Shown in pieces: positions 1-37,568 of a stretch of DNA of 48,517 nucleotides. Numbering within the stretch: position 1 is the stretch's first letter; every line of letters begins with the position of its first letter. The DNA comes from Paucidesulfovibrio gracilis DSM 16080 (GTDB taxonomy: Bacteria; Desulfobacterota; Desulfovibrionia; Desulfovibrionales; Desulfovibrionaceae), in the NCBI RefSeq assembly GCF_900167125.1, contig NZ_FUYC01000015.1, positions 1 to 48,517 on the forward strand, given 5' to 3'. Position numbers and translations under genes: made by a program. Below the pieces are notes generated by a model that saw only the letters and a program-made list of their open reading frames with translations, was not told where the DNA came from and ran no database searches.

Positions 1-14
1 TTTGGGGGCGCACC

Positions 15-63
15 GTTGCCGCGAGTTTCGGGAGGGCGGAGCCATCCCGGAAATCGCGGCAAC
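15..63. other. Long inverted repeat at the left edge
   Basis: Two arms face each other across an 11-base loop: the outer 10 bases GTTGCCGCGA pair perfectly with TCGCGGCAAC, and the inner arms TTTCGGGA and TCCCGGAAA pair with one bulge. There is no run of T after either arm, so it is not a classical intrinsic terminator. It lies upstream of the 3'-end repeat at 121-226 and may belong to the 3' end of a gene beyond the window edge. Function unknown. Confidence 0.5.
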
Positions 64-120
64 AGAACGACACGCCGCCGCGCTGCTCCGCCTTGCCATT
101 CCCCGGACGCCATCCCACCC

Positions 121-226
121 TACGCCCCCGGCCGCGCGCAGCGCGAGACCGGTAAATGGGATTCCAAAGGGTCGCGGACCCTTTGGCCGCCGGAGGCATG
201 CCTTTCCGTCCTGCGGGGCCGCCGGG
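121..226 (-). repeat. 3'-end hairpin repeat, copy A (after MscS gene)
   Basis: Read in the sense of the upstream gene (minus strand), the element begins within a few bases of the TAA stop. It holds, in order, a GGCCCCGCAGG block, GAAAGGCATGCCTCCGGCGG, a perfect hairpin (164-186: 10-bp stem CCAAAGGGTC/GACCCTTTGG, three-base loop), then ATCCCATTTACCGGTCTCGC and a GCGCGGCCGGGGGCGT end. The same order of blocks recurs after 13823 and 36441 and in shorter form after 8449 and 36656. A terminator or processing role is an inference; there is no U-tract. Confidence 0.8.
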
Positions 227-1438
227 TTACAGCACGTCCTTCCCGCGCGGATCCGGGGCGCGTTCGCGTTGGTAGACCCGCAGTTCAAACCAGGGTAGGG
301 CAGCCAACAGATGATCGAAAATATCGGCCTGAATGGACTCGTAGCGCACCCAGGCAATATCGCTGGCAAAGGCGTAAATTTCCAGGGGCAACCCCTGGGG
401 CGTGGGTTCCAATTGCCGCACCATCAAAATCATATCCTGCCGTAAATACGGATTTTCCCGCAGATATCGTTCCGCATAGGCCCGAAAGCAGCCCAAATTG
501 GTAAGGCGTCGGCCGTTGAGCGGATGTTCCGTGTTCACGCCGTGATCACGATTCCAGGCCTGCACCTCGGTGGTTCTTGTTTCCAGGTAGCCTTGAATCC
601 GTTCCACTTTGCGCAACGCGTCGAGCATTTCCTCATCCACGAACCGTACCGAGGAGAGGTCGAGAATCAGGGACCGCTTGATACGGCGGCCACCGGATTC
701 GGTCATGCCCCGCCAGTTGCGGAAAGCGCCGTCCACAAGCTTGAACGTGGGGATGGAGACGATGGTCTTGTCCCAGTTCTGCACCAGCACCGTGTGCAGG
801 GCAATGTCGATCACATCGCCGTCCGCGCCGTATTCCGGCACTTCCAGCCAGTCTCCCTTACGGATCAGATCCTCGCCGATGAGCCGGATGCCGGCCACAA
901 AGGAAAGAATGGTGTCGCGAAACACGAGCATGAGCACGGCGGTGAATGCGCCGACGCCGGAGAGCAGCCCCCAGGGGGATTCGCCCATGAGCAAGGCCAG
1001 CATGGCCACGCCCGCGAGGATGAAAACGAACAACCGGACGAGCTGCACCGCGCCCTTGATGGGCCGCCGTCCGGAGAGCGGCAGGGATTGGTAAAGCTGG
1101 TTGAGCACGGAGAGCAGGCCGGAAAGCGCCAGAGCGCCCACCAGCAATCCGAGCGCGTTCACGCCCCGGTCGATCCACTGGGCCTGGGCGGGGAAAACGT
1201 CTCCCAGGTGCGAGAGCACCAACAGCGGCGCAAACCAGGTTAAGGTGGTGAACACCTTGTGTTGCTGTAAGGCGTCGTCCCAGGGCATGCGGGTTCGGCG
1301 CACCACGGCGTGCACGGCGCGCACCGCCACTCTGCGGGCCAGAAACAAAGCCAGCCATGCCCCGAAGAGCAGGCCAACAGTGGCGAGGACATCGGTCAGC
1401 CAGGGCTGGTCCGCGAGGATTCGGCGCAATTGTTCCAC
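227..1438 (-). CDS. MscS-family mechanosensitive channel (YbdG-like)
   Basis: Inner-membrane small-conductance mechanosensitive channel that would release solutes on osmotic downshock. The 403-residue protein has about five hydrophobic helices in its first 180 residues, the last a glycine/alanine-rich pore helix ending near RDTILSFVAGIRL, then the MscS beta domain with GDWLEVPEYGADGDV and QNWDKTIVSIPTFKLV. The latter is typical of the longer YbdG/MscM branch rather than small MscS. The chosen GTG start at 1438 has GGAG six bases upstream; an in-frame GTG at 1450 has no such site and would add four residues. It may be cotranscribed with coaX, 115 bases upstream on the same strand. A 3'-end repeat follows its stop directly. 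Confidence 0.85.
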   Translation of the reverse strand: MEQLRRILADQPWLTDVLATVGLLFGAWLALFLARRVAVRAVHAVVRRTRMPWDDALQQHKVFTTLTWFAPLLVLSHLGDVFPAQAQWIDRGVNALGLLVGALALSGLLSVLNQLYQSLPLSGRRPIKGAVQLVRLFVFILAGVAMLALLMGESPWGLLSGVGAFTAVLMLVFRDTILSFVAGIRLIGEDLIRKGDWLEVPEYGADGDVIDIALHTVLVQNWDKTIVSIPTFKLVDGAFRNWRGMTESGGRRIKRSLILDLSSVRFVDEEMLDALRKVERIQGYLETRTTEVQAWNRDHGVNTEHPLNGRRLTNLGCFRAYAERYLRENPYLRQDMILMVRQLEPTPQGLPLEIYAFASDIAWVRYESIQADIFDHLLAALPWFELRVYQRERAPDPRGKDVL

Positions 1439-1553
1439 AGTACTCTCCACGCGCAGGATGAAAAATGATTCGTTGCTGGAAGAAATGGCCGTTTTTCAAT
1501 AAACCGCCATGCCTCGTCCTACCAAACCCGGGAAAAAGCGCAAGCGCAAGGGG

Positions 1554-8036: not shown

Positions 8037-8396
8037 CAATGATCTCCTTGCAGGTCACCCCGCCTAAACGAAATCCAATATATGATGTAGCTATTGCTGC
8101 TTATTGGCATATTTTATATCAACAACTCTACATAATTAGCCTATTCGATTTTAGTCAAAAACCAGCAACATACAAGCCAATACAATACGCAGTAAACCAA
8201 GTTTGATTGGTGTTGTCTACATCATCCACATTATTTTTGAGACGGCACGCCAACACGAAAAAGGAACCTGGTTGTTCGGCCAGATCGAAAATCAAAGGAC
8301 GTACTGCTCACGTCTATAAAAGGGGAAATCGCAAGAAGGGTGATACGATCGTCGAGTAGTTTTCCACACGCGGTTCACACACAAAACTCGAGGCTA
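8037..8396. other. AT-rich upstream region of the catalase gene
   Basis: No gene is seen. On the minus strand TTGACT followed after 18 bases by TATGTA (near 8130-8160) is a candidate promoter for the catalase. The whole stretch is markedly more AT-rich than the neighbouring DNA. Between about 8220 and 8390 I see nothing recognisable. Confidence 0.4.
8104..8122. promoter_or_regulatory. Candidate operator dyad upstream of catalase
   Basis: The 19-base site has half-sites TTG-N2-ATA and TAT-N2-CAA around a three-base centre, with exact symmetry in the six named positions of each half. It sits about 77 bases upstream of the catalase start. The regulator is unknown; a peroxide-responsive or Crp/Fnr-type factor is possible. 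Confidence 0.4.
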
Positions 8397-8448
8397 CCCC
8401 AAAGGCCATTGGCCCGTTGGCAAGCCGGAGGTCTGCCTTTCCCGCTTG
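8397..8448 (-). repeat. 3'-end hairpin repeat, copy B (after Crp/Fnr gene)
   Basis: Read on the minus strand it starts a few bases after the regulator's TAG stop with GGGAAAGGCAGACCTCCGGC, matching the opening block of copy A. A weaker hairpin follows (8399-8420; CCAACGGGCC against GGCCTTTGG). The distal blocks (CCCATTTACC and the G-rich end) are missing, so this is a short or decayed copy. Confidence 0.6.
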
Positions 8449-9132
8449 CTATCCGGCCATGCGGTCCAGCGCCTCCCGGTCCAAAATAGCAATATCCCGT
8501 CCCTGGGCGCGGATCATGCCCTGCTGCGTCATACGCGCCAAAACACGCGAGATGCTCTCCGGGGTTGTGCCGAGGATGCGGGCCACTTCGTGCCGGGGTA
8601 CGCGCAGGCTGACCCGGTCCGCGTCATCGCCCTGGGCGAGCAGGGTATGCCGCAAAAAAGACGCCGTGCGCTGCTGCACATCCCGCAGGGCCAGGTCTTC
8701 GATCATCTGCATGGAACTGAGCAGCCGCGTATTGAGTACGCGCAGAATATTCAACAGCAAGAGCGGCGTGCCGTGCGAATGCTTTTCCATGACGTCCCCG
8801 GGCAGGCTCATGACCCGGCTGGCGGCGATGGCCCGTGCGTTGAGCGGGGCAACACGGTTGTTATAGATGGTACAGAGGCAGAACGGTTCCCCCGGATCCA
8901 CCACGTACAGGGTCTGTTCCTTGCCTTCGCTGGTGCTGCGAAACAACTTGACTCCGCCCTCCATGAGCACATGGAAACGCGTGACTTCGTCCCCTTGGCG
9001 AAAAATCATTTCCTCAGGATCGAACCGGCGGATAAAGGCCTGGTCCGCCAATTCGGCTTGGTCCCGCTCCGCAAGCCCCTGAAAAAGAGGCATGGTTCGC
9101 AACTCCCGAAGCGTATCTTCCCCTGCGCTCAT
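8449..9132 (-). CDS. Crp/Fnr-family transcriptional regulator
   Basis: A 227-residue regulator with an N-terminal cyclic-nucleotide-type beta-roll (about 15-130), a dimer helix, and a C-terminal winged helix with EVARILGTTPESISRVLARM as recognition helix region. The SxSR segment is the part that in FNR/CRP proteins reads TTGAT-type half-sites. It lacks the N-terminal cysteine cluster of iron-sulfur FNR but has a C85-x-C87 pair, which could be redox-active or haem-linked. The start ATG 9132 follows GGAAG; a longer frame to 9204 has no support. It is divergent from the ferredoxin/NrfD/multihaem operon and likely controls it, itself, or both. Desulfovibrio HcpR-like regulators of nitrosative stress are a plausible relative, not proven. 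Confidence 0.88.
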   Translation of the reverse strand: MSAGEDTLRELRTMPLFQGLAERDQAELADQAFIRRFDPEEMIFRQGDEVTRFHVLMEGGVKLFRSTSEGKEQTLYVVDPGEPFCLCTIYNNRVAPLNARAIAASRVMSLPGDVMEKHSHGTPLLLLNILRVLNTRLLSSMQMIEDLALRDVQQRTASFLRHTLLAQGDDADRVSLRVPRHEVARILGTTPESISRVLARMTQQGMIRAQGRDIAILDREALDRMAG

Positions 9133-9236
9133 TTTTCTTCCCTGCCCGTTGAATAGCCTGTGCTGTACCCGGTGGTTTCCGCCAAACCACGCTGACACCG
9201 GCAAAACGTAAAAAATAACGTGTTTCGTCCACCTTC

Positions 9237-10258: not shown

Positions 10259-11425
10259 ATGCAGCATCAACCGCGACCCATTGACCGGCCTTTCTGGACC
10301 CCCGGCGTTCTGGTCCTGCTCGGCTTTATGATCGCTGGAGCTGTGGCGCTCCTGGCCCGTTTCATCGGCGGCCTGGGCTATGCCACGAACCTGAGCAACG
10401 CCACGCCCTGGGGCATCTGGATCGGCCTGGATGTCGGCTCCGGTGTGGCGCTCGCGGCCGGAGGGTTCACCACCGCGGCCCTGGCGCACATCTTTGGACG
10501 GCGCGCCTACGAAGCCGTGACCCGCCCTGCGCTGCTCACCGCGGCCCTGGGCTACAGCTTCGTGGCCTTTGCCATCCTGGTGGATATCGGCCGTTCCTGG
10601 GCCATCTGGAAACCCATGATCTTCCACAACTATAATTCCGCGCTGTTCGAGGTGGCCATGTGCGTCATGACCTACCTCACGGTGCTTTGGATCGAAATGG
10701 TACCCATCCTGGCGGAACGCTTCGGCCAGCGCGTGCCGCTTTTGGCCTGGCTGGATAAGCGGCTCTCCGCCTTCATGTGGGTATTCATCATTCTAGGCGT
10801 GGTGCTCTCCTGCATGCACCAGTCCAGCCTGGGGACGCTCATGGTCATCGCCCAGACCAAGATGCACGTGCTGTGGAACACGCCGTTCCTGCCGCTCTTG
10901 TTCCTGCTCTCCGCTTTTGCCGTGGGCTATCCCATGGTCATCGTGGAAACCAACCTAGCCACCACGTCCCTGCGTCTGGATAATGAAATGGATGTGCTGG
11001 GACCGCTCTCCCGGTTCACCATCGTGACCCTGGGCGCGTACCTGCTGGTCCGGCTTTGGGATGTGCTCTACCGGGGCGCGCTGGGCGCGGCCTTTGACGG
11101 CTCTGCAGCGGCCAACAGCTTTTTGGCCGAAGTGGGGCTGGGCGTGATCCTGCCCTGGATTTTGCTGCTGTTCCCCACGGTACGCGGATCGCGGCGCGGC
11201 CTGTTCTTCTCGGCCCTGCTCATCGTAGGCGGCGTGGTGCTCAACAGGGTGAACGTCTTCATCGTGGCCTATACCCCACACACCGCTACCTCGCCCTACT
11301 TCCCGGCCATGGCTGAAATTCTGGTGACCGCCGGTGCCGTGGCCACCATCATGTTCCTCTACCGCGTCTTTGTGACCTGGACCCCGGTGCTCTCCGCGCC
11401 CAAGCAGGAGGAGGTGGCCTCATGA
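10259..11425 (+). CDS. NrfD/HybB-family quinol-interacting membrane subunit
   Basis: A 388-residue protein with about ten transmembrane helices, of the NrfD/PsrC/HybB family that exchanges electrons with menaquinone. The helix-loop GLGYATNLSNATPWGIWIGL near the first quarter is typical of HybB/HmcC-type members. The start ATG 10259 follows AGGGAGG, ten bases after the ferredoxin stop. Its TGA overlaps the ATG of the next gene by four bases (ATGA), so the cytochrome is translationally coupled to it. With the flanking genes it forms a complete quinol-ferredoxin-cytochrome c path across the membrane; the direction of electron flow cannot be read from sequence. Confidence 0.92.
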   Translation: MQHQPRPIDRPFWTPGVLVLLGFMIAGAVALLARFIGGLGYATNLSNATPWGIWIGLDVGSGVALAAGGFTTAALAHIFGRRAYEAVTRPALLTAALGYSFVAFAILVDIGRSWAIWKPMIFHNYNSALFEVAMCVMTYLTVLWIEMVPILAERFGQRVPLLAWLDKRLSAFMWVFIILGVVLSCMHQSSLGTLMVIAQTKMHVLWNTPFLPLLFLLSAFAVGYPMVIVETNLATTSLRLDNEMDVLGPLSRFTIVTLGAYLLVRLWDVLYRGALGAAFDGSAAANSFLAEVGLGVILPWILLLFPTVRGSRRGLFFSALLIVGGVVLNRVNVFIVAYTPHTATSPYFPAMAEILVTAGAVATIMFLYRVFVTWTPVLSAPKQEEVAS

Positions 11426-13614
11426 GACCCGCAACGCGTATTCTTGCCCTTACGGGAATCCTGCTGGCCGTGGCTGCATTCGGCGTGCTCGCGGGGCTGC
11501 CCGCGGTCAACGGGTTTGCGGCCCCCGATCCCACTCCGGACGCCGCGCCCACGGAAAAGCAGCGTGCCCCAAGGCATCCGGCACCCGAGGGCTGGCAGGC
11601 ACCCGACCAGGCCAAAGCCATGCAACGGGCCGCGGAACCTCGGGAATTCGTGGCCAACGTACGCACCGAAGATCCCAAGCTGCGCCAACTGCGGTTCAAG
11701 GATCTGGAACTGGGCGTCAAAGACATCAAATTCCCGTACATCCTGCTGCACAGCCCGTTGGTGAACACCTTTGAGGACATGTACGGCCCGGTGCGGTTCA
11801 TGCATTCCAAACACGCGGCCAGCCTGGACGGCAATTGCGCCCTGTGCCACCACGTCAGCCCCGAGGGAGCGGACGCAAGCCAGGACCGACTTTCCGAAAC
11901 CGTGGCCTGCCGCGCCTGCCACCGGGAGTCCTTTGACCCCGATCACCCCGAACGGCTCGGCCTGAAGGCCGCATATCACCAGCAATGCATGGACTGCCAC
12001 GAACGCATGAATCAGGGACCGGAAAAATGTGTGGGCTGCCATCGCAACAACGTGCCAGACCACAAGGAGCTGGTGGAATTGCCCGACAATCCCACGGCCC
12101 TGCAGGTCACCGCGGAATGCCTGCGCTGCCACGAAAAGGCCGGAGAGGACATGATCCAAAGCGCCCACTGGCTCTGGAAGGGTCCGTCCCCCTATACCGT
12201 GGACCGGCAAAAAAAGGTCATGAGCGGCAAGGCCACTGACACGGTGAACAACTTCTGCGTGGCCCTGCCCTCCAACTGGCCGCGCTGCACCTCCTGCCAC
12301 GCCGGGTACGGGTGGGAGGATGAGACCTTTGACTTCACGGACATGACCCGGGTGGATTGCCTGGTCTGCCACGACACCACGGACAGCTACGTCAAAGCGC
12401 CGCCCAAGGCCGGGATGCCCGCGCCCGAAGTGGACCTCAAATACGTGGCCCAGCGGGTGGGGCAAACCAACCGCAACACCTGCGGCAACTGCCACTTCCA
12501 GGGCGGCGGCGGCGACGCCGTGAAGCACGCGGACATGTGCGCGGTGCTGCGTTACCCCAGCCGTAACTGCGACGTCCACATGGGCGGGTACGACTTCACC
12601 TGCACCCAATGCCACGAAGCCGTAAACCATAAAATCAAGGGACGCAGCACCTCCCTGCCCGTGGCCGAAGGCTCGCGCACCTGCGAGGACTGCCACAGCG
12701 ACAAGCCGCACTACGGCGACGACATGCTCGACTACCACCTGAACAAGCATTGCGACACCGTGGCCTGCAATACCTGCCACTCGCCGGCCTACTCCAAGTG
12801 CACCGCCACCAAGACCTGGTGGGACTGGTCCCTGGCCGGAGACAAAGACAGAACGCCCGTGAAGGATAAGTACGGCATGCCCGACTACTTCTGGAAAAAG
12901 GGCGAATTCGAGTGGAAGGAATCCAAAAAGCCCGTGTACGCCTGGTACAACGGCTACATGGAACGGCTGCTGCTCGGCGACGCCATCAATCCGGACGCCG
13001 TGGGCATCCGGCCGGGCGATCCCATGCCGGACAAGGCCGCGAAAAAGCAAATGGTCGTCACGGACATCACGGCTCCGGTCGGCTCCATCAAGGATCCCTC
13101 GTCCAAGATCTACCCCTTCAAGGTCATGGACGGCATCCAGCCCGCCGATGCCAAGCACCGCTACCTGCTGGTGCCGCACCTCTTCCCTGTTACGCCGGAC
13201 GATCCGACCGCGTATTGGAAGAACCGGGATTGGCAGAAGGCGTTCACCGAAGGCATGAAGGCCGCCGGCCTGCCCTACAGCGGGGAATACATGTGGGTGC
13301 GCACCAATATGTATTGGGGCATTCACCACGAGGTGACCCCCAAGGAAATGGCGCTCTCCTGCGTACAGTGCCACGAAAGCCTGAAGGGTGAACAGACCTG
13401 CGACCGCTGCCATCAGGATCACCGCGACGTGGACTTCAAGAAGCTGGCCCACCGGGGAACCGACTTCAGCTTCATGCTCTCCCAGGGGCGGGACGTGGCC
13501 GACCTCGTAGACAGCACCGACTACATCGACTTCAAGGCGCTGGGCTACAAGGGCGATCCCATCCTGCACGGCGGACGCTTTACCAAGCTCCCTCTTGGCC
13601 GCACCACCCCATAA
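11422..13614 (+). CDS. 13-haem cytochrome c: c3-like domain plus octahaem OTR-like domain
   Basis: A 730-residue exported cytochrome with an N-terminal signal or anchor helix (about 5-30). Thirteen CxxCH sites are visible. The first four (139, 163, 189, 203) follow FMHSKH and form a tetrahaem cytochrome c3-like unit. The next nine (233, 289, 313, 354, 394, 421, 449, 647, 660) fit the octahaem tetrathionate reductase family plus one extra near the end. Family hallmarks are HWLWKG after haem five and NNFC (C279) just before CTSCHAGYGW, matching the active-site cysteine region of Shewanella OTR. That family can reduce tetrathionate, nitrite and hydroxylamine. Inference: a quinol-linked periplasmic reductase with its own c3-type electron entry point. 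It could instead be a relay cytochrome such as those of Ohc/Hmc complexes. Confidence 0.85.
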   Translation: MRPATRILALTGILLAVAAFGVLAGLPAVNGFAAPDPTPDAAPTEKQRAPRHPAPEGWQAPDQAKAMQRAAEPREFVANVRTEDPKLRQLRFKDLELGVKDIKFPYILLHSPLVNTFEDMYGPVRFMHSKHAASLDGNCALCHHVSPEGADASQDRLSETVACRACHRESFDPDHPERLGLKAAYHQQCMDCHERMNQGPEKCVGCHRNNVPDHKELVELPDNPTALQVTAECLRCHEKAGEDMIQSAHWLWKGPSPYTVDRQKKVMSGKATDTVNNFCVALPSNWPRCTSCHAGYGWEDETFDFTDMTRVDCLVCHDTTDSYVKAPPKAGMPAPEVDLKYVAQRVGQTNRNTCGNCHFQGGGGDAVKHADMCAVLRYPSRNCDVHMGGYDFTCTQCHEAVNHKIKGRSTSLPVAEGSRTCEDCHSDKPHYGDDMLDYHLNKHCDTVACNTCHSPAYSKCTATKTWWDWSLAGDKDRTPVKDKYGMPDYFWKKGEFEWKESKKPVYAWYNGYMERLLLGDAINPDAVGIRPGDPMPDKAAKKQMVVTDITAPVGSIKDPSSKIYPFKVMDGIQPADAKHRYLLVPHLFPVTPDDPTAYWKNRDWQKAFTEGMKAAGLPYSGEYMWVRTNMYWGIHHEVTPKEMALSCVQCHESLKGEQTCDRCHQDHRDVDFKKLAHRGTDFSFMLSQGRDVADLVDSTDYIDFKALGYKGDPILHGGRFTKLPLGRTTP

Positions 13615-13716: not shown

Positions 13717-13822
13717 ACGCCCCCGACCGCGCAAGGCGCGGGCAGTAAATGGGATCCCAAAGGGTCGCGGACCCTTTGGCCGCCGGAGCATTGCTTCTCA
13801 GCTCCGCAGGGCCGCGCACAGG
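13717..13822 (-). repeat. 3'-end hairpin repeat, copy C (after PHP-glycosyltransferase gene)
   Basis: In the minus-strand gene sense it starts right after the TAA stop with a GCGCGGCCCTGCGG block, then GAGAAGCAATGCTCCGGCGG, a perfect hairpin identical in stem to copy A (13757-13779), then ATCCCATTTAC and a GCGCGGTCGGGGGCGT end. It meets the plus-strand operon terminator at 13637-13675 tail to tail. Confidence 0.8.
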
Positions 13823-16267
13823 TTACGAGTACCGCCCGGAGCGCACGGATTCGCCAAAGATTTCCCATGTTTTCAGAAAAGTGGCGTCAAACGTCCGTTG
13901 TTCCATGGATTGGCGCGCATTTTTCGCCATGTAGGTCCGACGTTCCGGATAATCGATGAGTCCGAGCATGGATCTGGCAAAGGCATCCGGATTGCCGGCT
14001 TTGCAGATCATACCGGTTTGGTCCGGGCGGATGTTTTCCTGCGGTCCTCCCAGGTCGGATACAATGGCGGGCAGTCCCGAGGCCTGGGCTTCCAGCACCA
14101 CGTTGCCGAAGGTGTCCGTGGCCGAGGGAAACACGAAAATATCCGCACTGGCATAAGCCTGGGCCAGTTCTTCCCCTTCCAGCACTCCGGTAAAATGGGC
14201 CGGAAGGCCGCGCAATTCCCGACGCATTTCTTCCAGGTACGGTCCGTCGCCCACGATGACGAGTTCGGTTCCTGGGCGCTGGGCATGTACGGTACGAAAG
14301 GCCCGGCAAAGCACGTGCAGATCTTTTTCCCGCGAAACACGGCCCACATAGAGAAACTTGATGCCGGACCCCATGTCCCGCTTGGAGAAAAATCCGTTCC
14401 GCTTGGAGGGATGGAATCGTTTGGTGTCCACGCCTCTGGGGTAGACGATGATTTTTTCCGGATCGATCCCTTTTTCGGCCAGTTCCTCCCGCACGGCGTG
14501 CGACGGCGCGTAGACAACGCTCATCTGGTTATAAAACCAGACCATGAACCGCCAGGCCGCATCTTCCAACACCTGGTCATCCGTAAGCGAACCGACGTAT
14601 TGCGGAAATGCAGTGTGGTAGGTGCCGTGGAAGGGCAGTTTGAGAATTTTGGACACGGCCAGGGCCGCCATACCCACCGGGCCGGGCGTGGCCGCAAGGA
14701 TGAAGTCGAAGTCCTGTTCAAAACAATAGGTCAGCATGTCCAGCAGGGGCGGATAGTAGAGCTTGATTTCCGGGTATTCCGGGATGCTCATGCTCCCCAC
14801 CGGCTCAAAACTCCGCACGCCGCATTCGTCGCGTCCCTGACCGCAGGTAACCACGTGCATTTGTTTGTTGTGGCGGCCGACCAGGGAGAGTTGCTGCCGG
14901 ATGGTGCGCGCCACGCCGTTGACCTCGTCGAACGTGTCGGTGAAATGCGCGACCTTAAGCCCCTGAGCGCGTGGCCGTTTTGGACGGCGGTCAAATGTCT
15001 TGAGCACCTCGTCGCAAAAACGGCGCTCCCGGGAAAAGAGGTCATAGCTCACGAAATAGGGCGCAAGCAGGGCGTAGAACGATCCTGCGGAACCAAGGGT
15101 GTGAAAAATATCGAAAAACTGTCCGTTGGTCACGGTCTGCATGGTGCGCTCGGCAAATTGATGCAGAATCCGCCCGGCAGCCCGATTCACGAACCGGGAC
15201 CATTCGGCTTCCAGCTCCGGCACGTCCTTGACCTGTCCATCGGCGAGATCGGAAAAGCGTTTGTCGTGCAGGATCAAATCCGTGGCCTCGGCAAGCATCA
15301 TGTCCTTGGCATTGCGCCCCCGGGCAAAACGGCTCCAGTAGGCGGTCTTGCCTCGACTGACCAGCCGCCGCAGTCCTGCGAACATGCCCGGCTCGGCGCT
15401 GTGGCGCGGATCCAGGGCGTTGTCCGCAAAACGAAAGCAGACATGCCGGGTTTCCGAAGAGTGGGAGCCGATGCGCTGCTTGTAGAATTGATAGGCAATG
15501 CCGTAGAGATTGTGGGCCATGGTTTGCGGGGTGGCCGGAGTTCCCTCGGGACGCCCGGAACGCAGCCGGATGCGTTGCTTGAGGTTCTCCAGCGTGGCGG
15601 GACCGTCGAACGCGGTGTGGAACCGCCCGATGTTCAGGGAGGAGTGGTCATCGGATCCGCCCGTGAGTCCTTTTTTCCATGGTGCTTCGCCGTACGGCTC
15701 CAAGCCGTGTTTATCGGCCAGGCGTTCCAGGTCGTATCGGCTCAGAGAGCCGACGATGTCGCGCAGCACCTGATTTTGCATGACGTCCCGGGTGCCGTTC
15801 AGCTCAAAATTGTTGAACAGCAACAGACATTGTTCAAAATGTTCCGGGGTGAGCCGGTCGTTCACGGCAAAGAGCGGATGAGCCAGGACGTGCGGAATGT
15901 TATGTTCCCGCAGCCAGGGCACCAGCTCGAACACATCGGGCCGCAACCGGGTGATGTCCTGATGTTGCTCCTCGGTGATGTCGTAGGCCAGCACATGCAA
16001 CTTGCATTTATCTTCCGGGAAATACGTGGTGATCTCCTCGGAAACAAAGGCATCCGGCAAATGCGCGATTTCCAGACTCCCGGCCAGGGTGTTGTGGTCC
16101 GTTATCGTGACCAGCCCCATGCCCATGCCCTTGCAGACTTCATAGATGAGACGCGGCTCCGTGAAGCTCTCGGGGCAACCGATTTTTTGCAGGAGCCATT
16201 GCGAGGGCCGGGTGGAGTGCCTGGAGTGGACGTGCAGATCAATGCGAAAGGATGATTCGCCGGACAT
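13823..16267 (-). CDS. PHP-domain / GT4 glycosyltransferase fusion
   Basis: An 814-residue two-domain enzyme. The first half is a PHP-type metal phosphoesterase-like domain, with DLHVHSRHS at 10-18, TITDHNTL at 54-61, an H-rich HVLAHPL segment and GGSDDHSS. The second half, from about 415, is a GT-B fold family 4 glycosyltransferase: HFTDTFDEVNGVART opens the first Rossmann fold, and GRVSREKDL and PSATDTFGNVVLEAQASG mark the nucleotide-sugar site with the E-x7-E pattern. The donor and acceptor cannot be read; relatives glycosylate lipids or polysaccharides. ATG 16267 follows AAGGGG. It lies 33 bases after a DksA/TraR-type gene, likely cotranscribed, and is followed by a 3'-end repeat. Confidence 0.88.
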   Translation of the reverse strand: MSGESSFRIDLHVHSRHSTRPSQWLLQKIGCPESFTEPRLIYEVCKGMGMGLVTITDHNTLAGSLEIAHLPDAFVSEEITTYFPEDKCKLHVLAYDITEEQHQDITRLRPDVFELVPWLREHNIPHVLAHPLFAVNDRLTPEHFEQCLLLFNNFELNGTRDVMQNQVLRDIVGSLSRYDLERLADKHGLEPYGEAPWKKGLTGGSDDHSSLNIGRFHTAFDGPATLENLKQRIRLRSGRPEGTPATPQTMAHNLYGIAYQFYKQRIGSHSSETRHVCFRFADNALDPRHSAEPGMFAGLRRLVSRGKTAYWSRFARGRNAKDMMLAEATDLILHDKRFSDLADGQVKDVPELEAEWSRFVNRAAGRILHQFAERTMQTVTNGQFFDIFHTLGSAGSFYALLAPYFVSYDLFSRERRFCDEVLKTFDRRPKRPRAQGLKVAHFTDTFDEVNGVARTIRQQLSLVGRHNKQMHVVTCGQGRDECGVRSFEPVGSMSIPEYPEIKLYYPPLLDMLTYCFEQDFDFILAATPGPVGMAALAVSKILKLPFHGTYHTAFPQYVGSLTDDQVLEDAAWRFMVWFYNQMSVVYAPSHAVREELAEKGIDPEKIIVYPRGVDTKRFHPSKRNGFFSKRDMGSGIKFLYVGRVSREKDLHVLCRAFRTVHAQRPGTELVIVGDGPYLEEMRRELRGLPAHFTGVLEGEELAQAYASADIFVFPSATDTFGNVVLEAQASGLPAIVSDLGGPQENIRPDQTGMICKAGNPDAFARSMLGLIDYPERRTYMAKNARQSMEQRTFDATFLKTWEIFGESVRSGRYS

Positions 16268-32401: not shown

Positions 32402-33256
32402 TCAATCCAACACCAAGGTCAGGCCCACGAGCAAAACAGCCTCCGATGCGGTCATCCCCGCGAAACTGCGTCGCAGAGCCGGAGCGTATTCCCGATACCG
32501 TTCGTCGTGGTGCGGCAATTCGCGGGCGGCCTGCCGCTCCTCTCTGTCGTAGTTGGCGTAATACATGCCCGTTAGCGAGCAGGCGAAAAAGAAATTGGCC
32601 CAGGCCATGCCGAACATGGCCGAGGACACGGAGCGTGCCAGTCCGCCCGGTTCGTGCCCTTGCAACAGTTCCAAAAGAGCCGGTCCCAATGCCCCGCCTC
32701 CGCTCAAAGCCAGGAAAAACGCCCAGGCCGTGTCCTTGGCCTGTCGCAATTGAAGCACGCCGTGAAGCCGCCGCACCAGGGCGGCATTGTGCGGATGCTC
32801 CGCATTCGGCTGGTCCGCGGCATCGTCCGGATCCCCGGCACCTGCCAGCCGCAACATCCGCACCCGCTCCATAAGGGTTTCATAGGCGCGCTGCTCGGTC
32901 CACCCTTCGGACTCCCAGCCCATCTTTCGACAAATATTGATCCCGTCGGCCTGATAATACACCGCCACCTGCCGATCCGGTTCCGGGGCAAAGGGATGGC
33001 GGCGCACCACGCGGTAGGCCACGTGCGGAAACGGTGACCGCACCCATTGGCCGCTGTGTTCCCGAACCATGTCCCGTAGATATTGCGCGGCCTTGCGTGC
33101 GGTCCAGCCCTGGGAGGCGCGGCCCACCATTTCGCAGATCTTGACCCCGTTGCGGCGATAATACACCGCAAAGCATGCATCCTTGGCCGGTCCGGTGCCA
33201 CCGGCCACGGCGCAGCACGCCACATACGGATAGGCGGTTTTCGACCAGTTGCCCAT
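32402..33256 (-). CDS. Membrane protein with tandem integrase-arm-like repeats
   Basis: Not a family I can name. The 284-residue protein has two copies of a 22-residue pattern at the same internal spacing: VYYRRNG-V-x-IC...GRASQGWT at 31-52 and VYYQADG-I-x-IC...GWESEGWT at 99-120, each followed by an alpha-helix (ARKAAQYL; EQRAYETL). The pattern recalls the arm-type DNA-binding domain of phage integrases. The C-terminal part has two or three hydrophobic helices (about 176-196, 208-232, 264-283). The start ATG 33256 follows GAGGGG; in-frame ATGs at 33262 and 33292 are possible. DNA binding is an inference from pattern only. Confidence 0.75.
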   Translation of the reverse strand: MGNWSKTAYPYVACCAVAGGTGPAKDACFAVYYRRNGVKICEMVGRASQGWTARKAAQYLRDMVREHSGQWVRSPFPHVAYRVVRRHPFAPEPDRQVAVYYQADGINICRKMGWESEGWTEQRAYETLMERVRMLRLAGAGDPDDAADQPNAEHPHNAALVRRLHGVLQLRQAKDTAWAFFLALSGGGALGPALLELLQGHEPGGLARSVSSAMFGMAWANFFFACSLTGMYYANYDREERQAARELPHHDERYREYAPALRRSFAGMTASEAVLLVGLTLVLD

Positions 33257-33633
33257 ATTCATCCCCTCATTGCCGGTCGATTGTGCATCCATTGCCGATT
33301 CACCCGCGCTGAGTGGGGGAATGTGAAGAAAAACCGCAGGTACTCGGGGGCAGTTGCAGGATCCGGACAAGAGAGGAGGACATCCCTTTGGTATTGGACA
33401 TCCCAATAGCTTGAGATAAAAAGAAAAACAAAACGAGTCCAATTCAATCAAAAGAAGCGGGTTATTCTGAATATACCCGGAAACATAGTGTGGCGCAAGA
33501 TCAATGGCGGTATTCTTTTACCACCGGCCGAAAAAGTGACGCACCAAAACGCAACCCAATGTAAAAGAAACAGTTCCCTTCAAAAAAACGGAACCTCGCT
33601 TGCCATCTTTCCGGGAATGATTATCATCGCGTG
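33257..33633. other. Divergent AT-rich intergenic region before uvrA
   Basis: No gene is seen in these 377 bases, which separate two divergent genes and should hold both promoters. I looked for a CTGT-N8-ACAG-type SOS box ahead of uvrA and did not find one; deltaproteobacterial LexA sites can differ. Confidence 0.35.
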
Positions 33634-36441
33634 ATGAAGAACACTGAATCCCATTCCGCTGACAAGCGTTGCATCCATATCGAAGGAGCCAGGCACCACA
33701 ACCTCAAGGATCTGACGCTGGACATCCCCCGCGACAAGCTTGTGGTGGTCTGCGGACCGTCCGGTTCAGGCAAATCCACCCTGGCCTTTGACATCGTCTA
33801 CGCCGAGGGCCAGAGACGCTACGTGGAATCCTTGTCCGCGTATGCCCGCCAGTTCCTCCCGCAGATGGACAAACCCCAGGTGGACAAAGTGGAGGGACTT
33901 TCCCCGGCCATCAGCCTGGAGCAACAGACGTCCACACGCAACCCGCGCTCCACCGTGGGCACGGTCACCGAGGTGTACGACTTTTTGCGCGTGTTCTTCG
34001 CCCGTTTGGGCCGCTTCCACTGCCCCCAATGCGGCAAGCCCATCCAGGCGCAGACCCAGGATGAAATCGTGGAGAACATCCTCGCGCTGCCCGAAGGCAC
34101 CAAGTTTCTGCTCCTGGCGCCGCTGGTGGACCACCAAAAAGGCACGCACAAGGACTTGTTCGCCAAGTTGAAAAAAGAAGGTTTCGTTCGCGTGCGCGTG
34201 AACGGCGAGGTCGTTGCACTGGACGATGCACCGGACCTGGAAAAAAACAAAAAACACAGCATCGACCTGGTGGTGGACCGGTTGGTGGTCCGACCCGGCA
34301 TGCGCACCCGCCTGGCCGATTCCGTGGAACTGGCGCTGACCAAAGGGGAGGAATCCCTCACGGTTTCCGTGGTTGGCGGCAGCCATGCCCCCACCGGCGA
34401 CCGGCTCGTGTCCACGCTCTCCACCTGCCCGGACTGCAAAATTTCCCTGCCCAGGCTCACCCCGCAACTCTTTTCCTTCAACAGCCCCCAAGGCGCTTGC
34501 CCAGCCTGTTCCGGCATTGGAGCGGTGGATTATTTCGAGCCGGACCTGCTCGCGCCCAACAAAGGGCTTTCCCTGAACAAGGGAGCCGTCATCCCCTGGA
34601 AAAACGCCCGGCTCTTCGCCAAGCACGCGGACGCGCTCAAAGCCGTGGGCAAGAAGCACGGCTTTACCCTGGACACGCCCGTGGGCCAATTCACGCCCGA
34701 GGCATGGCAGGCCATGTTCTATGGCGACAAGGCCGCAGATTGGGAAGGGGTCATCCCCAAGTTGGAACTGGGCCAGCAAATGGGACCGATCTGGCGGGAC
34801 GAGCTGGCCCGTTTCCGGCAATCCCGCCCCTGCCCGGCCTGCAATGGAGCACGCTTGCGGCCGGAATCCCTGGCCGTTCGTGTCCGCAGCGGCGACGGAA
34901 CCGGGAACGAACCCGGGCCAAACATCTTTGAGTTCGTTTCCATGTCCATTGCCCGCGCCTTGGAATGGCTCAAAGGGCTGACCTTCGAGGGACACGAAAA
35001 CCTCATTGCCGACCCCCTGCTCAAAGAATTGATCCACCGGCTCGGATTCATGGTCAATGTCGGCCTGGATTACATCTCCCTGGGCCGGAACATGTCCACG
35101 CTTTCAGGCGGCGAAGCCCAGCGCATCCGGCTGGCCTCCCAGCTCGGGTCCGGGCTGGTGGGCGTGACCTACGTGCTGGATGAGCCGTCCATTGGCCTGC
35201 ACCCCCGTGACAATGAACGGCTATTGGCCACGTTGCGCAGTCTGCAAGGACGCGGCAATACCGTGCTGGTGGTGGAACATGACGAGGAAACCATCCGCAA
35301 CGCCGACCATGTCCTGGAACTTGGCCCGGGATCGGGCATGCTCGGCGGGGAACTGGTGCATGAGGGGGATGTACCATCCCTGCTGCAAGGCCAGACCCTG
35401 ACCGGTAAATACCTGCGCGGGGACATGCGTATCGAACAGCCCGAAAAAAAGGTGGAACCCACCGGCTGCCTCACCCTGCGCGGAGCCGAGACCAACAACC
35501 TGAAAAATCTGGACCTGGAAATCCCCCTGGGACAGCTCGTATGCGTCACCGGGGTGTCCGGCTCTGGCAAAAGCTCCCTGGTCATGGATTCCCTCTATAA
35601 GCACATCGCCCTGGCCCAAGGCATCAAGGTGGACAACCCGGGACGCATCACCGGCATCGACGGGCTGGAACAAATCGAAAAAATCGTGTCCATCGACCAG
35701 ACCCCCATCGGCCGAACCCCGCGCTCCAATCCGGCCACCTACACCAAGGTGTTTGATGAAATCCGAAAAATCTTTGCCGGCACCAAGGATTCCAAGACCC
35801 GCGGATATCAGCCGGGCCGGTTCAGCTTCAACGTCAAAGGCGGACGCTGCGAAAACTGCCGGGGCGACGGCCAGATCCGGGTGGAAATGCACTTTCTCCC
35901 CGATGTGTACGTGACCTGCAACGTCTGCAAAGGCAAACGATACAACGCCCAAACCCTGGAAGTGGAATACCGCGACAAAAACATCGCGGACGTGCTGAAC
36001 ATGACCGTGCGCCAGGCCAAGGCATTCTTCGAAAATCATCCCGTGCTGCTGCGCAAGCTCACCGTGCTGGAGGAAGTGGGCCTGGAGTACCTCAAGCTCG
36101 GTCAACCCGCCACCACCCTTTCCGGCGGCGAAGCACAGCGCATCAAGATCAGCCGGGAACTGGGCAAACGAAGCCTGCCCGGGGCGCTGTACATTCTGGA
36201 CGAACCCACCACCGGCCTGCACATGCACGAAGTGGGCAAGCTCATCAAGGTACTGCGCAAGCTTGTGGACAAAGGCGCCACGGTCATCGTTATCGAACAC
36301 AATATCGATGTGATCCGCGCTGCCGACCATGTGGTGGACCTGGGACCAGGCGGTGGAGAAAGCGGTGGACGTATCGTGGCCGCGGGTTCGCCCGAACAGA
36401 TCCAGGCTGATCCGCATTCCGTGACAGGCAAGTTTTTGTAG
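33634..36441 (+). CDS. uvrA: Excinuclease ABC subunit A
   Basis: DNA damage recognition ATPase of nucleotide excision repair, acting with UvrB and UvrC. The 935-residue protein has both ABC modules: first Walker [11 protein letters not shown] and signature [18 protein letters not shown] with [12 protein letters not shown]; second Walker [11 protein letters not shown] and signature [18 protein letters not shown] with [12 protein letters not shown]. Zinc-finger cysteine pairs are present (CPACSGIG region, and CENCRGDGQ with [10 protein letters not shown]). Length is as usual. The start is ATG 33634; a GTG three bases earlier is an alternative and the ribosome site is weak. A 3'-end repeat begins directly after the stop. 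Confidence 0.97.
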
Positions 36442-36546
36442 CCCTCGGCGGCCCTGCGGCTGAAAGGCAGGCCTTCGGCGACCAGGAGGCCCGCGGCCCC
36501 CTGGACCCCCATTTACCGGTCTCGCGCTCCGCGCGGCCGGGGGCGT
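36442..36546 (+). repeat. 3'-end hairpin repeat, copy D (after uvrA)
   Basis: It begins at the base after the uvrA stop: CGGCGGCCCTGCGG block, GAAAGGCAGGCCTTCGGCG, a hairpin (36482-36504; CCAGGAGGCC/GGCCCCCTGG, one mismatch), then CCCATTTACCGGTCTCGCGC and GCGCGGCCGGGGGCGT. Flanks match copy A almost base for base while the stem differs from CCAAAGGGTC at several pairs changed on both sides. Confidence 0.82.
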
Positions 36547-36570
36547 GGAGCTAGGAAAAGTCTTTGGAAA

Positions 36571-36631
36571 GGGGGTCCAGGGGGAAAAACCTTTCTTCAG
36601 AAAGGTTTTCCCCCTGGTCGCCGAAGGCCGT
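36571..36631 (-). repeat. 3'-end hairpin repeat, copy E (after small membrane gene)
   Basis: In minus-strand gene sense it reads GGCCTTCGGCGACC, then a long hairpin (36577-36617: about 18 bp, arms built of CCAGGGGG, a run of A, CCTTTC and their complement, four-base loop), then GGACCCCC. It shares the CTTCGGCGACCAGG and CCTGGACCCCC edges with copy D but has a longer stem. It lies tail to tail with copy D, one for each of the two converging genes. Confidence 0.75.
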
Positions 36632-36655
36632 CTCTTTTTCTTCCGTTCCTTCCGG

Positions 36656-37084
36656 CTAGGTTGATCCGCACCATTTCATCCACCAGCAAGTAGCAAGCCC
36701 CCAGCAGACGCTCCAGGCAAGGGTCACGACCAACTGCAATCCGGAGTCCGGCATGGGTGAAGGCTCTGCGGCCAGCGGCGGCAACACGCCCGTCAGCATG
36801 GTTACGGCCGGGAGCAAGGCAACGAGCAATCCTTTGAGTGTAGCGCTTTGCAGGGACCAACGGGGAACGCAGGCCAGGGCGCACAGTGCTCCGGCCATGG
36901 CCGACCGGCTCAACCAGGGAAAACCCGGCCAGGAAGCCGCGTCCACGCCCATATTCCGTTCCCAGAGCACGCCGCAAAGATAATAAGCCAGGACAGCGCC
37001 GATCACCCCACCCAGCACGCCTCCGGTAACAGCCGTGGAGAGCCGCAAGGCCAACCGTTGACCAGGCCGTTTTCGGCGGCTCAC
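36656..37084 (-). CDS. Small membrane protein (four helices)
   Basis: A 142-residue protein with four predicted helices (around 18-45, 60-80, 88-110 and 118-138 by eye). No family recognised. The start is a GTG at 37084 that overlaps the stop of the upstream gene by four bases (GTGA), so it is translationally coupled to it. A basic N-terminus (SRRKRPGQR) precedes helix one. A 3'-end repeat follows. The pair may be an ATP-synthase-type or transporter accessory unit, but nothing shows this. Confidence 0.65.
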   Translation of the reverse strand: MSRRKRPGQRLALRLSTAVTGGVLGGVIGAVLAYYLCGVLWERNMGVDAASWPGFPWLSRSAMAGALCALACVPRWSLQSATLKGLLVALLPAVTMLTGVLPPLAAEPSPMPDSGLQLVVTLAWSVCWGLATCWWMKWCGST

Positions 37085-37413
37085 GAATGGTTTCCTCTTT
37101 TCTGAGGGGGTTCGGAGGCGGAGTCGCTTTTGCCGCTTACATCGCGTCGCAGCAACAGGCGCATCCCCCAGCCGAAGAGAAACATGGGCAACAGGAGCAT
37201 GGCCAGGGTCATAACCTTGGCCGCGCCCCCCGGGAAAAATCCCCGGACCATGCCCAGGGGAAGCAGGATCAGAATGGGAAGCTGCAACAGCGCCCCCACC
37301 CCCGCCCAGAGCCGGAGCCGTCGGGGATGGGTGGATTCCGATCCGGGCTGCGGCCAGGAGATGCGCCACAGGCAGAGCGCCCCCAGCATGGAGAGAAAAA
37401 GAAGAACGGCCAT
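37081..37413 (-). CDS. Small membrane protein (three helices)
   Basis: A 110-residue protein with three hydrophobic helices (about 1-20, 34-58 and 66-88) and a charged C-terminal tail. No family recognised. ATG 37413 has only a weak ribosome site. It overlaps the next gene by four bases. Being upstream in the pair, it probably forms a complex with the 142-residue protein in the inner membrane. Confidence 0.65.
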   Translation of the reverse strand: MAVLLFLSMLGALCLWRISWPQPGSESTHPRRLRLWAGVGALLQLPILILLPLGMVRGFFPGGAAKVMTLAMLLLPMFLFGWGMRLLLRRDVSGKSDSASEPPQKRGNHS

Positions 37414-37533
37414 GCCGCCACATAGCTGAAAACAGCGGAAAAGAAAACGCTGCTACCGTCTTGGTTGCCGAATGGCGCAAACTGTTCACATACTGTGGAA
37501 CGCGGCAAATCAACGCTCCGGCCGCAAACGGGC

Positions 37534-37568
37534 AAAAAAAAGGACGGAAAGGGCGTACCTTTCCGTCC
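37534..37568 (-). terminator. Intrinsic terminator of the lipoprotein operon
   Basis: On the minus strand a perfect 11-bp stem GGACGGAAAGG/CCTTTCCGTCC with a five-base loop is followed by eight T residues. It ends transcription of the lipoprotein gene that stops at 37592. Confidence 0.93.

Follow-up and report, generated by a model that had tools for sequence, protein, structure and literature searches.

The 48,517-nt stretch analysed here (the window) is contig C15 of the 3.18-Mb, 53-contig draft genome of Paucidesulfovibrio gracilis DSM 16080 (G000), and it carries three copies of a palindromic module, named L (left), just beyond the ends of genes. The L covariance model, which had these copies among the rows from which it was built, matched them at 124-208 on the minus strand (copy A, E 3.3e-22), 13719-13801 on the minus strand (copy C, E 1.8e-14) and 36460-36544 on the plus strand (copy D, E 3.4e-21). 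Copy A lies 20 nt past the stop of ORF 227-1450 (-), which encodes a mechanosensitive channel, and copy D lies 19 nt past the uvrA stop (33631-36441, +), while copy C sits between the convergent ORFs 11422-13614 (+) and 13823-16267 (-). In gene orientation, the three modules start 19-23 nt past the stops of unrelated genes. Copy C consists of L only. Copy A belongs to a larger element of ~410 bp truncated by the contig start, with positions 1-123 (-) holding the beginning of its middle part, which includes the long GTTGCCGCGA...TCGCGGCAAC palindrome. Downstream of copy D, an R (right) module occupies 36558-36628 (+), its outer arm GGTCGCCGAAGGC repeating the L arm GCCTTCGGCGACC in inverted form; together the two modules form an internally deleted L-R element (D/E, 36446-36628, +) that folds as one long hairpin. 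Read in its own sense, this R module points away from ORF 36656-37513 (-), a convergent ORF whose stop is 27 nt distant; this ORF has no Pfam match and was not chosen by our gene caller.

The preliminary description of this DNA listed five independent short copies, each placed directly after the stop of an unrelated gene and reading in the direction of that gene. This holds for the L modules of A, C and D, which, however, are modules of a larger dimeric element; the fourth and fifth copies are the two ends of D/E, the fifth (the R module) reading the opposite way. The remaining one, copy B (8390-8443, -), follows ORF 8449-9204 (-), a Crp/Fnr-type regulator according to Pfam, and scores weakly (13.7 bits, E 0.19). 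It may be a decayed relative of L, and its head block is exact, a pattern that gave 3 matches against 0.06 expected but had been drawn from these very copies. A head-like block (GCCTCCGGCGGCC in the loci) is repeated ~30 nt before the true L hairpin at 36446-36459 of the window and in four other loci (L002, L007, L009 and L015). Elsewhere in the window, ORF 32402-33451 (-) contains a 70-nt direct repeat (32896-32965 and 33100-33169; 71% identity, spacing 204 bp), which perhaps encodes a repeated protein motif.

The full element measures ~410 bp and consists of inverted L and R hairpin modules of ~85-100 nt each flanking a middle. From the outside inwards, L comprises GAAAGGCATGCCTYCGGCGRCC, a hairpin, the motif GGAnyCCCVTTTMCC and a CGCGC hairpin; R has a hairpin of matching style in inverted orientation, and the middle holds the long palindrome together with a hairpin of 17-21 bp. 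Inverted ends of 13 bp are present in D/E and in many G000 copies, and absent at the R end of the copies on G000 contigs C5 and C14 and of the units of a second genome of the genus (G054). These G054 units are L-R repeats of ~208 bp, often in tandem, of which G000 holds one array, on C6; G054 and the public record of Desulfovibrio sp. STF2_139 both show three core matches 208 bp apart.

Copy A has 41 matches in its own genome, itself included, with 40 of 66 candidates scored. A full copy (L027, 413 bp as cut) gave 76 own-genome matches, the first 42 of which (E <=7.4e-36, itself included) are element-sized and the rest short pieces, mostly inverted; the best other copy is 91% identical over 369 nt. 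The modules fetched from G000 merge into 64 places, some of which may be two halves of one site, interrupted by contig ends, and a module is found no more than 450 nt from 42 of the 106 contig ends. Among the matches listed, none is on contigs C3, C4, C7 or C9 (C3 alone is 0.4 Mb), and none falls in 20 spread 20-kb stretches of the large contigs. Most are carried by small contigs, and the copies look clustered, partly because contigs break at them.

Both modules have retained their folds while their sequences changed. A full L-R copy gave a z of -7.98, with none of 100 shuffles as stable, and the short D/E copy, folded over 36446-36633, a z of -6.25 (0/200). In the alignment of 128 L modules (122 distinct) from the three genus genomes, changes on both sides occur at 16 of 25 pairs, a count reached by none of 500 shuffles and compared with at most 12 in slid versions. 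For the 99 R modules (97 distinct), which also include other family members, the count is 27 of 36 pairs (0/500 shuffles as high; a maximum of 14 after sliding). Fitting to the model was used for both alignments and biases them towards the structure. These counts bear out the earlier observation that the stems differ with changes on both arms while the fold is kept. Because G-T and A-C cells showed no clear strand preference outside single columns, folding as RNA and folding as DNA are not separated by these data.

Of the 26 readable distinct copies, 25 retain the middle hairpin, with many two-sided changes; two of the 28 segments are cut by contig ends, and L014 is the copy that lacks the hairpin. 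The hairpin has a GC core and, in the same 25 copies, an A-rich rising arm and a U-rich falling arm. The earlier statement that there is no U-tract is therefore correct for L and R and does not extend to the amplified version of the element, which contains this A-rich/U-rich hairpin.

Gene neighbours were counted in G000, G054 (only 89% complete) and a third genome of the genus, G013, as the nearest gene within 400 nt on the outer side of each module, using our own codon-model gene caller. The outer neighbour of L reads into the module in 29/40 cases in G000, 18/23 in G054 and 15/22 in G013, and in 25 of the 29 G000 cases its stop lies at -3 to 55 nt. The outer neighbour of R is convergent in 23/30, 20/22 and 9/12 cases, respectively, and 17 of the 23 in G000 are at 6-33 nt. 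In G000, 11 of the 40 L ends and 7 of the 30 R ends depart from this pattern. Pooled p values are 3e-5 for L and 5e-7 for R, to be read with sites common to species not being independent, and neither end is significant in G013 alone (p 0.13 and 0.15). Two more G000 copies have a tRNA gene in sense just before L (tRNA-Arg at L014, tRNA-Leu at L030) and were left out of these counts since the nearest protein gene is more than 400 nt away.

Where both flanking genes are known, elements occupy convergent spacers in 8/18 cases in G000, 14/20 in G054 and 12/25 in G013, versus 53/342 among spacers in 400 kb of G000, and divergent spacers in 2/18, 1/20 and 0/25 versus 46/342; the G013 total of 25 is inflated by counting both members of inverted L pairs. 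Pooled, 3/63 spacers are divergent, versus 40/192 when the reference is limited to lengths of 50 nt or more (p 0.002) and 46/342 when it takes in all spacers (p 0.06). The genes of G013 and G054 were initially called with models trained on their own longest ORFs, later replaced by the codon model trained on G000. In G013 (64.8% GC) the self-trained run reversed the bias, with 8 of 15 two-sided cases divergent, and it was rejected because such a model appears to pick antisense ORFs there, long ones misleading its training at 65% GC. As the outcome flipped after this correction, the G013 numbers carry the least weight. Among other family members, where genes were called with the model trained on G000 and some palindromic sites entered once per strand, R-type matches have a convergent outer gene in 31/46 cases and lie in divergent spacers in 1/42.

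The elements are, then, inverted palindrome pairs at gene 3' ends, with convergent and unidirectional spacers preferred and divergent ones avoided. Neighbour counts in the three genomes support the preliminary proposal of a gene-end element with fixed orientation and REP-like character, and the genome-wide scatter without regard to stops or gene direction that would have spoken against it did not occur.

Within the family set of 199 Desulfovibrionaceae genomes, the whole middle was found in its own genome only, with up to four candidates scored per genome, and 18 others have middle matches of 22-42 nt. The 24-nt core of the middle was absent from the named genomes and viral contigs searched, a set from which own or near records were possibly omitted. 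The L or R ends are more widespread: at least 79 of the 199 genomes, own included, contain one, mostly R-type (E 1e-5, three candidates scored each). Between G000 and G054, occupied sites could be compared directly. Element-abutting gene ends number 53 in G000, and 50 were searched in G054, the three left out being two short proteins and one that exceeded the length limit; 44 have a usable ortholog, five have none, and one match of 48% identity was set aside. At 15 of the 44, the ortholog's end abuts an element in G054 too, versus 0.85 expected from 54 abutting ends in 40 fetched G054 stretches and ~2,800 genes (estimated from G000 gene density), and the element sequence differs. One of the neighbours of copy C, ORF 13823-16267, has a G054 ortholog that likewise lies next to an L end. 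Of the 15 shared cases, 10 involve the same end (L or R) in both genomes and 5 the opposite one, a swap not accounted for by simple inheritance.

A site common to G000 (C5/C39) and G013 (C12) has the same two genes flanking an L-R element with differing middles, and a U-tract terminator-like hairpin is kept before L in both. Another gene pair (C14:34461/34905) encloses a ~370-bp element in G000, where its spacer measures 443 nt; in G054 (C76) the spacer is 4 nt, the genes having been taken as orthologs from 80% and 55% identity over their last 60 residues. With many occupied ends shared while the sequence is renewed per species, these data suggest that the sites are old, that some were gained or lost, and that copies homogenize each other by gene conversion, which we infer as the simplest cause. 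Two convergent gene pairs that are element-free neighbours in G054 (C18 and C138) have their members abutting different elements in G000 (C8/C11 and C35/C38), and this splitting suggests that genome rearrangements had their break points at elements.

RAYT transposases are a frequent explanation for REP-like repeats, and a RAYT link had been raised for these hairpins. A Y1/RAYT transposase (PF01797) was detected in none of the three genus members at E 0.001, while 74 of the 199 family genomes have one. We scanned 22 PF01797 loci, two of which repeat others and one of which served as the positive control; the control matched, and profiles found no L or R module at the 19 distinct family loci. 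A core scan allowing three mismatches gave one match at these loci (L462 = L338, the same place), which the profiles did not extend. The RAYT link was thus rejected for the three genus genomes. A phage or plasmid origin was likewise set aside, with no blastn match in the plasmid and phage collections. An attC/integron cassette was considered because the hairpins follow stops, and its GTTRRRY core was not seen by eye in the palindrome.

According to Di Nocera et al. 2013 (PMC3733652), BIME/REP dimers are palindromes scattered through the genome, frequently as inverted pairs, beside gene 3' ends and mostly in unidirectional and convergent spacers; CGTC REPs lack a dedicated transposase and have a CGTC/TGTC/CCTC tag, a stem of 8-9 bp that opens with two A-T pairs, and a CCA tail. 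Our elements resemble BIME/REP dimers in placement and inverted pairing, and CGTC REPs in that no dedicated transposase was found. They differ from BIME/REP dimers in their ~85-100-nt modules with long hairpins, the ~410-bp composite, the rarity of GTAG and a stem base of C-G rather than A-T. The GTAG tag occurs anywhere in only 1/128 L and 3/99 R modules, and CTAC in 3 L and 5 R. CGTC strings are present in 13/128 L and GACG in 48/128 L. The first two pairs of the L hairpin, A-T in the CGTC-REP stem, are C-G in 119 and 117 of 122. Desulfovibrio does not appear in the main text of PMC3733652. REPINs, which occur with RAYTs, are described in a 2011 study (PMC3116915) as inverted doublets folding as one hairpin, with tandem clusters. 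Our elements share these traits and are unlike REPINs in that PF01797 is absent from the three copy-rich genomes and no module lies beside the 19 family loci. This is a BIME-like gene-end family without the tested features of GTAG or CGTC REPs or of REPINs, and we found no published description of it in the open-licence literature.

BOX, RUP, Correia/NEMIS and ERIC elements are modular or bear terminal inverted repeats, measure roughly 100-400 bp, and are structured and intergenic. Our elements are similar by this description; the sequence-level comparison consisted of Rfam, where the element was unmatched at gathering score in the window and 23 loci, with only tRNA and TPP recovered.

Bidirectional intrinsic terminators have a GC-core hairpin with A-rich and U-rich arms, and the middle hairpin resembles them in both respects. 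It is unlike them in that its U-rich stretch lies inside the long stem, that L and R have no U-tract, and that a pattern scan for terminators did not call it. Between the stop and the element, a U-tract terminator-like hairpin was seen in 7/49 cases in G000, 7/54 in G054 and 4/25 in G013, and element-free convergent ends have a terminator within 170 nt in only 18/98. The comparison of 7/49 in G000 with 18/98 was neutral on the idea that elements replace terminators. Canonical termination is probably also used here, given a U-tract terminator-like hairpin of the ordinary type at 37542-37568 (-) of the window.

Taken with these placements and folds, we put at about an even chance that these dispersed, non-coding, dimeric palindromic elements at gene 3' ends have a role at mRNA 3' ends as a two-way barrier; a transcript-end role is the function that placement and structure make most likely. 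L and R are inverted, each as a rule pointing away from the adjoining gene, and the middle between them differs between species. The elements fill gene 3' ends, chiefly in convergent spacers, as BIME/REP dimers do, and an mRNA running into one would gain a stable 3' hairpin. In this species, the mRNA would also meet an A-rich/U-rich hairpin able to halt polymerase from either side, so that the element would act as a two-way end barrier. We infer transcription into the element, and termination or 3'-end protection there; copies would homogenize by gene conversion, and some sites would be gained or lost.

A less probable, still serious alternative is a selfish, non-autonomous REPIN- or MITE-like element moved by an enzyme encoded elsewhere, with gene ends being where selection spares insertions and the fold serving the mobilizing enzyme. 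Inverted ends with subterminal hairpins, tandem L-R arrays and near-identical copies are all in keeping with such mobility, as are the presence/absence site at the C14 gene pair and a fold without clear strand preference. It is weakened by the results for PF01797 and for the plasmid and phage records, and by the 15 of 44 occupied gene ends common to two species. That the copies are instead BIME-2-like topology elements, whose palindromes would serve as binding sites for gyrase or for a nucleoid protein and release supercoiling between convergent units, appears unlikely. The convergent preference, the tandem arrays and a head-block dyad, YCGGCGR, with covarying outer letters would fit it, but elements also stand after tRNA genes and as single modules. 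The gathering of contig ends around modules points to a fragile assembly near the copies, which could prompt the suspicion of chance or an assembly artefact, with unrelated terminator hairpins merely looking alike. This is highly improbable in view of the 42 element-sized matches to one copy, the 91% identity of the best other one, the whole copies inside contigs and the recurrence of the G054 tandem array in a named public record.

A 20-nt core, TGCCTYCGGCGRCCARRGGG, extends beyond the genus, occurring in at least 120 stretches from Desulfovibrionaceae, Aminicenantes, Clostridia, Selenomonadaceae and others; six IMG/VR viral contigs (L215-L220) also contain it. Of the 89 core matches in 80 listed loci (L095-L174), 79 are accompanied by the corresponding falling arm and by a GGA tail. 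This tail is a mirror image of the stem: AAAGGG occurs mostly with AATCCC (also AACCCC and AAACCC), AGGGGG with ACCCCC, AGAGGG with ACTCCC, and AAGGGG mostly with AACCCC (also ATCCCC). At the two variable positions, stem and tail share 0.79 and 0.89 bits of information across 75 named modules, and less, 0.71 and 0.33 bits, across 129 own and family modules. The outer letters of the YCGGCGR dyad covary, with C/G in 81, T/A in 11, mixed (C/A, T/G) in 0 and other in 2 of the named modules (n=94), and 146, 62, 3 and 4, respectively, in own and family modules (n=215); viral ones have C/G in 4 and T/G in 1. In 15 Desulfovibrionaceae groups, the core follows a gene in sense in 32/42 cases and lies in divergent spacers in 0/34, a count that omits four STF2_139 loci (this genome is G054). 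Aminicenantes show no gene-end bias (7 sense, 11 antisense, 3 inside a gene call; divergent 3/16 spacers), and the remaining groups have 7 sense and 6 antisense (divergent 0/9). Single Aminicenantes genomes hold many core copies.

Speculatively, and we regard this as doubtful, the core GCCTYCGGCGRCC-ARRGGG...CCCYYT-GGAnnCCC could represent one ancient or horizontally spread palindromic family in several phyla, its tail mirroring the falling arm as in an intramolecular triple helix of a purine arm, a pyrimidine arm and a second pyrimidine strand. In the genus, it would have developed into a gene-end cassette of two modules, inherited with its sites, renewed where it stands and spread mainly by gene conversion rather than by a transposase. 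Alternatively, the mirroring may trace back to a few subfamilies by descent, without any triple helix.

The sulfate reducers studied here thus contain a large family of repeats with strong gene-end placement and kept folds, and no RAYT was found in the three genomes. The elements mark break points of assembly and perhaps of rearrangement. As occupied sites are comparable between species while the sequence turns over, inherited function and selfish spread can be tested against each other. If the elements end or protect transcripts, they would fill a gap in the picture of how genes end in sulfate reducers.
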